This document shows, piece after piece, positions 3,001-44,500 of a DNA stretch of 64,000 bases; the stretch's first letter is position 1, and each line of letters starts with the position of its first letter. Position numbers and translations under genes: made by a program. Origin of the DNA: Cynocephalus volans (lineage: Eukaryota; Chordata; Mammalia; Dermoptera; Cynocephalidae); assembly GCF_027409185.1 (NCBI RefSeq), contig NC_084462.1:2710578-2774577 (forward strand), given 5' to 3'. Under the pieces are notes generated by a model that worked only from the letters and a program-made list of their open reading frames with translations, made no database searches and was not told the origin of the DNA.

Positions 3001-6000
3001 TGGGCGTCAGATGATTGAGAAAACCAAGCAACTGGTCGAGTCCAAGTACACAGTGGAGAACGGCTATGGTGCCAATGCCAAGGTCAGGGGCTATCCCACC
3101 GTTAGCCCTAAGGTGGGCCCAGAACAGGTGGGGGTGATTGCAGGGAAGCTGGGCCCATATGTCCCCGCACCTCCCAGTCACCTGGTCACATTCTGCCTGT
3201 TCTCCCATGGTAGCAAATCCCTCCCACCCCTCTGCCCCCTGCCCACCCCAGTTGGCAGAAGGGGACTTCCCTCACACAGTCCTTCCCCAGGTGGTGTATG
3301 GTGACACTGACTCTGTCATGTGCCAATTCGGAGTCTCCTCTGTGGCTGAGGCAATGGCTCTGGGGCAGGAGGCTGCGGACTGGGTATCAGGTCACTTCCC
3401 ACCGCCCATCCGGCTCGAGTTTGAGAAGGTATATGGGGTCCCCCCTTTATACTCCGGGCTCAGAGTGGAAACAAGTATGGGTCTTGCCAGTTGAGGGGGT
3501 CTGTTTCTCGGGGTGCCTGCAAAGCTTGAGAATGCAGTAGTTTGGGGGTTACCTCATGTCTGGATTTGGGAGATCCTGATGTTCAGGGTCTCTCTGTTTT
3601 GGGGTGCCCTGATTGGGGTACTCTGGACATCCCATTCTTCAGGTTCATAAGTCCCAGTGTCAAGTTATTTTGTGGCATGAATTTGGGGCCTTGGTTTTGG
3701 AAACCTACAAAGACTTGGGCTTTGTAACACGGGACATCATCCTGTGGGATTTTGTAAACCCTGCCACAGTGTCTCTGGTTTGGGGGTTTCCCAGTGCCTG
3801 TCAGGTGTGGGAGCGTCCCTCAGTGGTGGGGACCCTGATGGGGATCTTGGATATGGGTACCATCGTCCAATGTCTCCTGGCTCCCAGGGTGCATTGGGCT
3901 TGGCTCCAGGAAACCTCACACTATATTCATTCTCCATAGTTCTAACATGCACCTCTGGGTGTACCAACTTGGAGTCTTCTGAGTTGAGGAAGTCTCTGCC
4001 TCAGGGCTCACCCCTGGATCTTAATCTTCTCTCTCTCAGGGGCTGCCTCATTGTATCCCCCTGTCTAGATCTCATGTTTTAGGGGGCATCTCTAGGTTTA
4101 TTCCACTCTCTGTTTTAGATTGGGGTCCCTGGCATGCTGAGGGTGCTCAAGAGCCATTTAGGGTTCTAGAGTTCATTCTGCTACTTTAGGGTGTAGCTCC
4201 CCAAGTGTCTGATCCTGTGTCTCAGCGACCATCCCTGTGTGTCCTCAGTGTCTGGTGGGGAGTCCCATGATTGGGGACTGGCCCCCACAGTCTCAGAGGT
4301 CTCACCCATGGGTTTCTCCCAGGTCTACTTCCCCTACCTGCTCATCAGCAAGAAGCGCTATGCAGGCCTGCTCTTCTCCTCCCGGCCAGACACCCACGAC
4401 CGCATGGACTGCAAGGGCCTGGAGGCTGTGCGCAGGGACAACTGCCCTCTCGTGGCCAACCTAGTCACCGCCTCACTGCGCCGCCTGCTCATTGACCGGT
4501 GTGTGAACCCTCCATCCAGACCTGGAGTGCAGGCCCCCAGCCCCCTCCTCCCTCAGACCCAGGAGCCCAGCCCCAGCCCCTCCTTCTTCAAACCCAGGAG
4601 TCCCGGCCCCCAGCCCCACCTCCCCTGGGGACACAGGTGTCAAGCCCAGCTCCTCAGTGGTGAAGCAGTGGAAAGAGTTGGGTTGGACAGCTGTGGGTTC
4701 AGGTCCCTCCTCTGCCACTTTGCAGCCTGTGGCCAGGCAGGGCCCCTCCTTTCCCTGGGCCTCAACCCACAGATCCCCTCCTAGTCCCCCAGCCCTCAGG
4801 TGCCAGCCTGGCTTTCAGTGGCCACTGGTGATGCCTGCCTGTTTGGCCCACCCTCCCTACAGAGACCCCAAGGGTGCTGTGGCCCACGCACAGGAGGTCA
4901 TCTCGGACCTGCTGTGCAACCGCATTGACATCTCCCAGCTGGTCATCACCAAGGAGCTTACCCGTGCGGCCGCTGACTACGCCGGCAAGCAGGCCCATGT
5001 GGAGCTGGCTGAGAGGTCCGACAGGCAGGAGGCGGGGGCCATCCAGAAATAGCCCCCTCCTGCCAGCTGTGCCTACCACTTCCTGCACCCCCCACTCTGC
5101 CACCCCACCTGACCTCACCCACCCACCACCTCGGTCTCCCCGCAGGATGAGGAAGCGGGACCCTGGGAGTGCACCCAGCCTGGGTGACCGCGTCCCCTAC
5201 GTGATCATCGGCGCCGCCAAGGGCGTGGCTGCCTACATGAAGTCCGAGGTCAGGCCCACCTGGGCTGCCCGCGCCCGCCTGGCTCTCCTCTGCTTTCACT
5301 TCTGCTTTCCAGGATGGGCGGGCCAGTGGGGAGGGGTGTGTCCCTGTGCGGGCCCCATGGGGTTCTGACACCCCTGGGAGTCAGCTCCAAGAGGCTTTCT
5401 TCCATCCTCCCCCATCCCCCATTATCCTGACCCCTCTCCTGCTCCCTCTTATAGAAAGGGGGCCCCAGACTCCCCCGGTACACAGAGCATCTCCGTCTCC
5501 ATCTCTGTTTCTGTGTGTCTGTTTCCATTTCTGTCTCTCCCTGATCCCTGCTCTGCAGCTTCTAATTCCCCTGGATTCATGTCCTCCCCCATGCTACCCA
5601 GATGTCGAGTGACCTCTGACCTCCACGACCTTTCCTTTTCCTCGCTTCCATGAACTCTGACCCTTCCTTTGTTCCTGGGGACCCCTACCTGTGGCCTCCA
5701 TTGCAATATGGGACACAGAGCCTGTGGCCCAGTGACTCCCCATGACCTCTGACCCCATCTCAGACCCATATTCTCCTCCCCCACCATGCCACAGTTTCCA
5801 GGGCAGCACCCATGCCTGGTGGCTGCACCACACCATTGCCTCCTCCATTTATGGCTAAAGGACCTCAGTGGCTCCGGTGCCCTTACATGATGCATGACTA
5901 TGTCATCCCTGTCCCCTCCCTCATGTGACCTTGCTGACTCCCCTGCTGCAGGACCCCCTCTTCGTGCTGGAGCACAGCCTGCCCATTGACACGCAGTACT

Positions 6001-41556: not shown

Positions 41557-44500
41557 CTAGGACCAGGTCACCTCCATTTTCAGACAGTCATCCAGGCTCC
41601 CAGCCCCCTCCCCTCCCCCAGACACAGGAGTCCCGCCCCTCACCTTCTCCCACTCTAGCCAGATCTCCTCCTCTTCCTCTTCTTTCTCCTCCTCCTCTTC
41701 CTCGTCGTCCTCTGGTGCTGAGTACTCCTGTGTGAAAGGCACAGCTCCTTGGGCTGAATTGAAGTGCAGGCGGTAGAGCAGCCTCACCCACTGGCCGAAC
41801 TCGCGATCGCGAGTCTCGGACGGGGCCCGCAACTGCAAGTAGAAGGCGCGGCCGGTGCAGAACTTGACCTTGAGCTGCCAGCGGCTTTCGTCGTGGACGA
41901 AGAGCTGGACAAACTGCAAGGGGAACAGCCTGGGCATGTGGAAGGGGTGGTCTCAGGTTTTAACTCTCCCTGAATCAACAGTCTTCCCTTCTCCAGGCGC
42001 CCTCAGGGTCCAGCCTCCCACATCTGACCACTCCTCCCTCTGCCCGCAAGGAATCTTTTTTCGCCTCCATTGCCTCTTGAATATAAATACATCCCCAACT
42101 TCCTTCCAACCCAAAATCACCTTTTTGTGTCCTGTTGGTCCTAACTCCGTAACTCCAGACTCAAATATGCAACTGCCTACTTGAAATTTCCATTTGGATG
42201 TCGGATCGATCATCAGACCACAACATGTCAAACAACCAAATTCCTGATCTCCTTTCCTGCAAACCTACTCCTCTTCTTTGCCGCCTTAACTACATTCCCG
42301 CCTCCTACTCCCCACCCTCTTGCCTTGCTAGGTCAAAAATCTTGGAGTTGCCCCTGACTCGACGTTCTTTCTCACACTCTCAACCAATCTTGCCATCAAA
42401 TCCTGGTGGCTCCACCTTTAAAATGTATCCACAATCCAACCACTTCTGACTCCCTCAACAACCATCCTGGGGTCCAGCCACAGTAATTTCCCGCCTGGGT
42501 TTCTGGCCTCAGCCCTTGTTTCCTAGTCTGTTTTCCATGAGGCCGTCAGAGGGCGCCAGTTAACGCCTTACTTAGCCTCCCGTTCGCTGCAGCTGCCGGC
42601 TCACACAGGGTGAAAACAAGGTCCTGCAGGATCTGCCCCTTTGTTCCTTCTCTGACCTCGGCTGCTGTACCTCCAGCCACACTAGCCTTCTCACTGTTCC
42701 ACGAACACAGGCTCAGTTCTACCCCAGGACCTTTGCACAGGCTGTTCCCTCCACTTGGTACACCCTCTTTCTCCAGCCATCCCCATGACTCGACCCCTTA
42801 ATCTCCCTCACATCTTTCTCAGGAAGTTCCTTCCCAGGGAGGTTTCCTCTTGGCTTATTTACAACCACATCCATCCTTGCAGACCTCACCATGGCCCTGC
42901 CCTGTCTTATAGATCCTTACACCATCTGACAAACGGCTATGTGTTCTGTCTGCCTTCCCAGTAGAATGTGAGCTCCTTGAGGGCAAGGATTCTGGCCTGG
43001 TTTTGTCCAATGCTGTTTCCCTAGTACGCAGAGCTGACATATAGCAGGTGCTCAATGGATGTTTGTTGATTATTTGAATAAATGAATTGCTCAGGCCCCC
43101 ACCCTGATTCAAAGGTTCAACAAGGCAGAGGAGGAAACAGTCGAGAAGGTGGGGAACTTGGCCCAGGTCAGGAACATTCCTTTATGTTCTTAACCAAACA
43201 TTGGGTAGGCACATACTCCCCTCTGGCCTAGCAATATTACTTCTAAGAACTGGTCTTACAGATACCCTCACACCTGTCCACAGACTTACTCACATGGATA
43301 ACCCCTGCCACATTGGCTATAACCCCAAGACACCAGAGGAAATTTCAGTGTCCCTCAGTGGGTGACTTATTATGTCCCCTACCAAATGGAAAAACATCGG
43401 CTTACATATGTGGAGTACTCACTCTGTTCCAGGTGCTGTTCCAAGTGCTTTACAAACATTTACTCAGTTTATCCCCTGATAGCCCTGGAAGGTGAGCTCT
43501 CTTATTTCCACTTCCCAGATGAGGAAACTGAGGCACGGACAGGTAGGGAGGTTGGCCAAAGCCAGTGAAGAAGGGAGTCCAGGATTTGAACACAGGCCAT
43601 CTGAAGGCAGACATTGTTCAAGGACATTCCTTCTACACTGTAACAGCAACAGGATGGACACAAGCTTGGTGCTCAAGGGGGCAGAGCTTGTTCAATTGCG
43701 TACATCCAAAATAAATAAATAAATAAATAAATGTGGTGGCTGGTACTATGCCGATATAAAATGGGTACTGACATAGTGCTGATGAGGGAGTGAGCACAGC
43801 AGAAAAAGAGCATACAGCATGTGTCTACTGCTGTTTTTAAAGAAAGGGTGAACACATATATGCCTGTCGGTAACTTGTTACAGAACAGCTCAGAGCTGTA
43901 AGTTGGTTAGATAGAAGCAAGATAGGTTGGGCTGGCTAGTTGGCTCGCTTGTTTAGAGTGCCATGTTTGTTTTGTATTTTGGAGTATGTTTGTTTTCCCA
44001 CGTGTTTGTATTACTCTTTCAATGAAAAACTAAGGCCAAAACAGGCAGCATGTAGCATGGCATGGGAGCTCAAGAATCATGAGATCAGCCATCACGAGGA
44101 GCCCGAGGTTCCAATCTCAGACCATCCTTGACCTACTGTGGGACCCTGGGCAAACTCGCTTTCCTCTCTGAGCCTCAGTTTATCTCTTTGGAGGATGGGG
44201 CTAAGGAGCCCCACCATGTGAGGATATGAGGTCTGAGATGAGATCATGTGAATGGCCCAGGGGGCACCTGGCATGCAGTAGACACTGCACAAATGGTCAT
44301 TCTCCTACCCCTACCAGGGTATAGCTGAAGAGTGTTCCCTCATGCCTGTCTAGACCCTGGTTTTTGGCCCCTGTGGATTGCCCTGTCTTTATTCTGCTGG
44401 GTGGACAGCAGCCCAGACAGGGCTGGCAGCCATTCGAGGCTCCTTGCCCTAGGGGTGGTCTGGATGACAGCAGGTGCTCCTGGGGGCTTGGGTGCCCAGA

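Follow-up and report, generated by a model that had tools for sequence, protein, structure and literature searches.

Dispersed copies of the MSR1 minisatellite are enriched in minimal introns and lie mostly in sense orientation

Why should the same minisatellite unit recur beside the splice sites of three genes? The question is raised by a 64 kb stretch of DNA (the window, by which we mean the whole stretch analysed) whose genes run in the order end of POLD1, SPIB, MYBPC2, GARIN5A, EMC10. A preliminary description had placed a repeat unit next to splice sites of POLD1, MYBPC2 and GARIN5A, and this observation holds: five clusters lie 6 to 56 bases from exons of POLD1, MYBPC2 (three clusters) and GARIN5A. 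Judged by their sequence, the units are MSR1, the 36-38 bp "chromosome 19" minisatellite. The bias in their placement lies in intron length, together with richness in guanine and cytosine (GC), and not in splice-site targeting. The reading that we favour, at a probability slightly better than even (about 0.52), is that MSR1 is a dispersed repeat with an excess in minimal introns and with a sense-strand bias most likely produced by purifying selection at the RNA level.

The window was scanned with nhmmer using a profile built from the array at 29174-29887 and no filter for exon proximity, although the five clusters had first been singled out for their closeness to exons. The scan returned five clear clusters (best units 17.8 to 42.6 bits), and the other profile matches, none above 6.2 bits (17361-17573 on the minus strand, 3.5 to 6.2 bits; 11620, 5.5 bits), were taken as noise. 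We mapped 51 exons in the window from a comparison with the polymerase delta catalytic subunit, open frames, tblastn with human proteins, and splice-site scores. In POLD1, about three inverted, antisense units (4509..4626, minus strand; nhmmer 37.9, 16.4 and 10.2 bits; 35-bp period in Tandem Repeats Finder, TRF) begin 10 bases past the donor of the exon at 4323..4498 (plus strand, border from splice-site scoring), whose translation, joined to that of the next exon, matches the DNA polymerase delta catalytic subunit 6s1m_A (E = 1.4e-62). The three MYBPC2 clusters and their exons are all on the plus strand, with the units in sense orientation. One and a third units at 18767..18819 (32.9 bits; 1 mismatch against the human 28-base consensus) precede the exon at 18876..18953; they had been described as 40 bases upstream of its acceptor, and they are indeed upstream, but by about 56 bases. 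About two units at 19564..19641 (27.9 and 5.7 bits), which match the 29169 array in a self-BLAST, start 6 bases past the donor of the exon at 19471..19557. Both of these exons were placed by tblastn with human MYBPC2 and by border scoring. The array itself, about 19 units at 29169..29902 (TRF period 38, 18.9 copies, 90%; also matched by nhmmer), starts 20 bases past the donor of the exon at 29119..29148 (acceptor 13.6 bits, donor 11.4 bits). Net of MSR1, the introns that hold the 19564 cluster and the 29169 array measure 86 and 133 bases. Finally, a degenerate unit at 41590..41629 (minus strand; 17.8 bits, E = 0.00018) is sense in the minus-strand gene GARIN5A and lies 15 bases past the donor of an exon ending at 41645 (41645..41951, minus strand, upstream border approximate; open frame with a Pfam GARIL_Rab2_bd match of 64.8 bits). 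The borders first named for POLD1 (donor 4498) and MYBPC2 (acceptor 18876, donors 19557 and 29148) were right. When clusters of the same lengths were placed at random, every one of the five came to lie no more than 56 bases from an exon in 0 of 20,000 placements over the genic span (2500-52500) and in 1 of 20,000 over the wider span 1-59900.

Using the human TNNI3 minisatellite consensus given in Table 1 of PMC3541360 as the MSR1 reference, we found that the unit core, TGGGTCTGAGGGAGGAGGGGCTGGGGGC, is 1 base off this consensus. Six matches in the window carry 1 mismatch, against 0 in 100 shuffles, and the units are spaced 36-40 bases apart, mostly 37-38. A search of the 2.81 Gb assembly with the core, allowing no more than 2 mismatches, gave 532 matches versus 44 for the reversed pattern. 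Among the core matches listed, the 88 exact ones are all on contigs C3 or C18, and 11 of the 12 with one mismatch are on C3 and 1 on C2; a single locus, L011, holds 11 further exact minus-strand matches beyond the 88 listed. The genome matches of the array likewise fall on C3 or C18 in 80 of 80 cases. MSR1 is concentrated in one gene-rich chromosomal block, which corresponds to 19q in its genes. The block presumably includes KDELR1, ALDH16A1, FCGRT, AP2A1, TOMM40, XRCC1, ATP1A3 and others, identified in part with Pfam, which we take, by gene content, to be human chromosome 19q genes. In a Pfam check of peptides, 19 of 28 scored above the curated cut-off (10/10, 6/10 and 3/8). Because blastn found no Alu in the 64 kb window, the host genome is probably not that of a primate; tRNA-like repeated elements occur there, and the short interspersed element (SINE) of the window appears to resemble the colugo type. 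Elsewhere in the block, MSR1 lies in an intron tentatively assigned to HSD17B14 (L054), where a Pfam match stayed under the cut-off, and in what we take to be the locus of a FUT gene (L010). HSD17B14 and FUT1 are among the human genes putatively regulated by MSR1 (PMC6112826), and the copies at these loci hint at old shared copies. Human MSR1 is reported at PRPF31 and KLK14 in the relevant parts of PMC4725990 and PMC6112826.

Outside the window we collected 49 loci: 26 around matches of the array (L009-L034), 16 with isolated copies (L035-L050) and 7 added later (L051-L057). They were picked by MSR1 sequence match and not by gene content, and are not a random sample. The main tests cover 42 loci (L009-L050) with 75 clusters in one assembly. 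Exons were called by a predictor whose training on the window was extended by self-training on the loci, at a stricter and a looser setting and with MSR1 and SINEs masked; on the training window, its first version made 63 predictions at the looser setting, recovering 41 of 45 known exons, and 52 at the stricter, recovering 38 of 45. That first prediction called open frames in SINEs exons, and the test was rerun with SINEs masked. At the stricter setting, a predicted exon is no more than 60 bases away for 22 of the 75 clusters, versus 7.5 expected under uniform placement (0/5000); the association with exons thus extends beyond the window. The expectation becomes 10.5 after matching of flank GC (2/5000) and 13.4 after matching of the clusters' own GC (P = 0.010), the latter being weighted by GC class (median cluster GC 0.68). 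At the looser setting, 23 of 75 clusters are within 60 bases, versus 10.6 for uniform placement (0/5000) and 13.8 for flank GC (28/5000). The later loci gave 3 of 7 versus 0.9 expected, one of the three (L053) by virtue of a doubtful exon. Among SINE copies in the 42 loci, 2 of 52 are this close to an exon (5 of 52, looser). The proximity of MSR1 to exons is a real excess.

Within introns, the copies show no such preference for the ends. Their position is uniform, with a mean edge statistic of 0.50 (Kolmogorov-Smirnov p = 0.80, n = 32), and is much the same when three window introns and one later intron are added (mean 0.49, p = 0.80, n = 36), which indicates that the repeat does not target splice sites. 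An edge bias does appear in those three window introns for which both ends could be mapped (0.08, 0.14 and 0.30), but these are the introns that prompted the finding; the clusters at 18767 and 41590, each with one intron end unmapped, fall outside the position and length tests. What varies is intron length. By net length, MSR1 clusters number 3.60 per kb in introns below 150 bases, 1.14 at 150-300, 0.40 at 300-600, 0.84 at 600-1200 and 0.21 above, so that, base for base, introns under 150 bases hold the repeat 4 to 17 times as densely as those over 300. The median net length of MSR1 introns is 296 bases versus 728 expected by base (0/5000), and 12 of them measure 68-138 bases net of the repeat. 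This is close to the size of human minimal introns, which have a length peak near 85 bases and a threshold near 65, as stated in PMC4463651. Short introns bearing MSR1 include those of MYBPC2 (19557-19722), ALDH16A1, TOMM40 and EPS8L1. Among the mapped window introns, MSR1 occurs in 2 of 6 short and 0 of 19 longer ones in MYBPC2, and in 0 of 3 short and 1 of 6 longer ones in POLD1. MSR1 thus comes to lie close to splice sites mainly by being overrepresented in minimal introns, where every position is near an exon.

At the stricter setting, 25 of 32 intronic clusters have the G-rich strand of the unit in sense (p = 0.0021), and at the looser setting 29 of 38 do (p = 0.0017). The machine count of 25 of 32 takes clusters between two predicted exons of the same strand no more than 2500 bases apart; counted by intron, 21 of 26 are sense, and by locus 17 are sense versus 3 antisense, with 2 mixed. 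A tally of genes made by hand, which was not blind, gave 22 of 27 sense, and among those genes backed by Pfam, PDB or tblastn 16 of 20 (p = 0.012). Left out of this tally were VSIG10L, with one copy in each orientation; copies by an unnamed or doubted exon (three antisense ones in L010 at 4581-5615, and those in L016, L019, L024, L025, L035, L041, L049 and, antisense, L053); copies that are not flanked by two predicted exons and whose distance to a named one exceeds 100 bases (such as those at LIM2 in L023, antisense, and at BCAT2 in L011, sense); and an antisense copy beyond the last KLK exon in L020. In the later loci, 4 of 5 named genes carry MSR1 in sense. The length and orientation hypotheses were formed on the data on which they were tested, and the later set is small.

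A difference between the two strands is visible in the unit itself. Read antisense, it is CCCCCTCCTCCCTCAG/ACC, a pyrimidine tract followed by CAG. Per kb, the antisense strand of the array carries 26 acceptor-like sites that reach 7 bits, versus 3 to 4 across the window, while on the sense strand 0 of 60 AG sites reach 5 bits; the 34 mapped acceptors have a median of 7.8 bits. In POLD1, where the copies are antisense, acceptor-like sites stand at 4557 (9.3 bits) and 4598 (8.6 bits), about 60 and 100 bases past the donor. Antisense MSR1 is also present at the OSCAR, VSIG10L, CCDC106 and HSD17B14 loci. A comparable case is the exonisation of antisense Alu elements, in which the antisense strand offers a polypyrimidine tract and an AG. 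Antisense MSR1 shares these two features; it differs in being a 38-base tandem repeat and not a retroposon, and its acceptor-like sites are predictions from sequence.

We therefore favour, among the explanations weighed, the reading in which MSR1 is dispersed and then sorted by selection on RNA. Each antisense unit would supply a polypyrimidine tract plus CAG and so a strong cryptic 3' splice site, while the G-rich direction would be neutral or mildly helpful for splicing. Purifying selection at the RNA level would remove antisense copies from introns, and selection against cryptic acceptors would leave a sense bias of the kind observed. Selection, and not biased mutation, would then lie behind the strand bias, and the short-intron excess may reflect tolerance of the repeat or benefit from it there instead of a preference of the process that seeds copies. 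A role of MSR1 in splicing is possible but unproven.

Several points weigh against this reading. Outside the window, exons were predicted ab initio and are only partly confirmed by Pfam, and 2 of the 12 short MSR1 introns (L016 and L042) rest on weak exons. Closeness to exons is partly due to GC-richness: at the looser setting the own-GC expectation is 17.0 versus 23 of 75 (P = 0.066), and 24% of windows with 72-80% GC lie near exons (30%, looser) versus 29% of MSR1 clusters (31%, looser). Proximity is weaker for the isolated copies (L035-L050), with 6 of 20 versus 2.7 expected at the stricter setting (189/5000) and an expectation of 3.9 at the looser (764/5000). Copies inside and outside introns show no significant difference in their sense bias (Fisher p = 0.30 stricter, 0.085 looser), and by nearest predicted exon just 4 of 6 later copies, a small set, are sense. 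Existing antisense copies keep strong acceptor-like sites (9.3 bits in POLD1, 12.5 bits in L022), 14 of at least 7 bits in L026 among them, so antisense copies are tolerated and any selection is partial. The sense array in turn has donor-like sites of its own (8.0, 9.1 and 6.8 bits, at a first-base junction and in one variant unit). Lastly, MSR1 in non-first introns went with no greater variability of expression (p = 0.23) in the analysis described in PMC4725990.

Both biases could instead arise without selection, if MSR1 seeds or expands in transcribed, GC-rich, G-skewed DNA, where R-loops and G-quadruplexes would form on the non-template strand. The unit is described as forming a G-quadruplex in solution (PMC3541360, in the part concerned), GC-rich windows generally lie near exons, and the orientation of MSR1 in and out of introns is, as said, not significantly different. 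Against this, GC-rich control windows that have a strong skew and lie near exons show no sense bias at 65-80% GC (48-51% sense, stricter setting), although those above 80% GC do (72%, n = 50). On balance we consider a mutational origin of the two biases possible but rather improbable.

It is also conceivable, though in our view unlikely, that MSR1 is a retained splicing enhancer, its sense-strand G triplets helping to define minimal introns through hnRNP F/H or U1 under positive selection. The short-intron excess and the sense bias (25/32 intronic clusters) fit this idea, and CAGGGGCTGGG is essential for the splicing of two human ultra-short introns according to the pertinent sections of PMC4463651. 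Of the 29 intronic clusters in sense orientation, 19 contain the motif AGGGG(G)CTGGG; with both strands counted, 25 of 37 intronic clusters have it versus 18 of 43 elsewhere (Fisher p = 0.026). Yet the sense strand does not keep this motif better, since 6 of 8 antisense clusters have it too (p = 1.0), and the exact 10-mer AGGGGCTGGG is present in just 2 of the 5 window clusters (2 sites in the window versus 1.15 expected). Nor are the splice sites of MSR1 introns weaker, with p = 0.45 for donors and 0.70 for acceptors at the stricter setting and 0.81 and 0.55 at the looser, and a preference for donor-proximal positions inside introns was not seen. A bolder version, which we regard as doubtful and a shade less probable again, makes MSR1 a portable intron-definition module: it would be kept, mostly in sense, in the minimal introns of about two dozen or more genes of the block because its G-runs help splicing and its antisense strand makes a cryptic 3' splice site. 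Targeted insertion at splice sites and site-to-site gene conversion, both entertained in the preliminary description, are very improbable. In their favour, 5 of 5 window clusters are no more than 56 bases away from an exon, short clusters depart slightly from a uniform start phase (Rayleigh p = 0.03), and sequence is shared between the flanks in 33 pairs, possibly as degenerate units (among the 20 pairs listed, most involve L010 or L041). Against them, position within introns is uniform, units far apart are as similar as units close together (0.80-0.82 in every distance bin, and likewise from contig to contig), and the 80 clusters taken together show no clear preference for a start phase or an end phase (Rayleigh p = 0.08 and 0.43).

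Some further features of the window and loci were recorded. The putative AP2A1 gene (Pfam Adaptin_N) carries sense MSR1 in three places (L037 at 1194-1221 and 1440-1491, L038 at 1205-1241), and the two in L037 lie 19 and 10 bases past successive donors. tRNA-like SINEs occupy 2559-2734, 10655-10850, 34310-34451 and 36253-36446 of the window, and similar SINEs in the loci have a recurrent open frame that gene prediction can mistake for a coding exon. Around an EMC10 exon there is a direct repeat (47721-47961 and 48445-48684; 87% identity over 243 bases), and the stretches at 51637-51747 and 52188-52239, which resemble each other (53 bases, 89%) and look like EMC10 3' exons, may be a duplicated last exon. 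Downstream lie a polypurine array 3.2 kb long, built of GGA/GAG units (59917-63144, TRF), and then a GT array (63719-64000). Among the matches listed, JOSD2 is represented in the window by weak matches only, at 8.1-8.3 kb.

How does this compare with what is known of MSR1? The copies described here resemble those of the human TNNI3 promoter, PRPF31 and KLK14, and one said, in the title of a reference, to lie in APOC2 intron 3, in having a core no more than 1 base off the TNNI3 consensus, a spacing of 36-40 bases and a place in a block of presumed 19q genes; they differ in being found in a probably non-primate genome. Published work, as far as PMC6112826 and the portions of PMC4725990 and PMC3541360 concerned here go, deals instead with promoters, first introns, untranslated regions and transcription. 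A partial survey of the literature, with subscription journals mostly outside it, found no report that connects MSR1 to the length of introns, to a strand bias or to cryptic splice sites. Human ultra-short introns with the CAGGGGCTGGG enhancer are similarly short and G-rich, and many MSR1 units carry AGGGG(G)CTGGG; those introns, in the sections of PMC4463651 that describe them, are 37-65 nt long and appear without mention of a minisatellite, whereas the short MSR1 introns have a net length of 68-138 bases, and their splice-site scores are ordinary.

In humans, MSR1 modulates transcription from nearby promoters at PRPF31, where its copy number is tied to the penetrance of retinitis pigmentosa, as set out in the corresponding parts of PMC4725990. 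Its copy number is also tied to cancer risk (KLK14), with a mode of action described as unclear (PMC6112826). The bias towards minimal introns, combined with the bias towards one RNA strand, makes splicing a testable route of MSR1 action, and the MSR1 introns listed in this work are available for splicing tests. If MSR1 is indeed an intron-definition module, its known copy-number variants would act partly through splicing and not through transcription alone.

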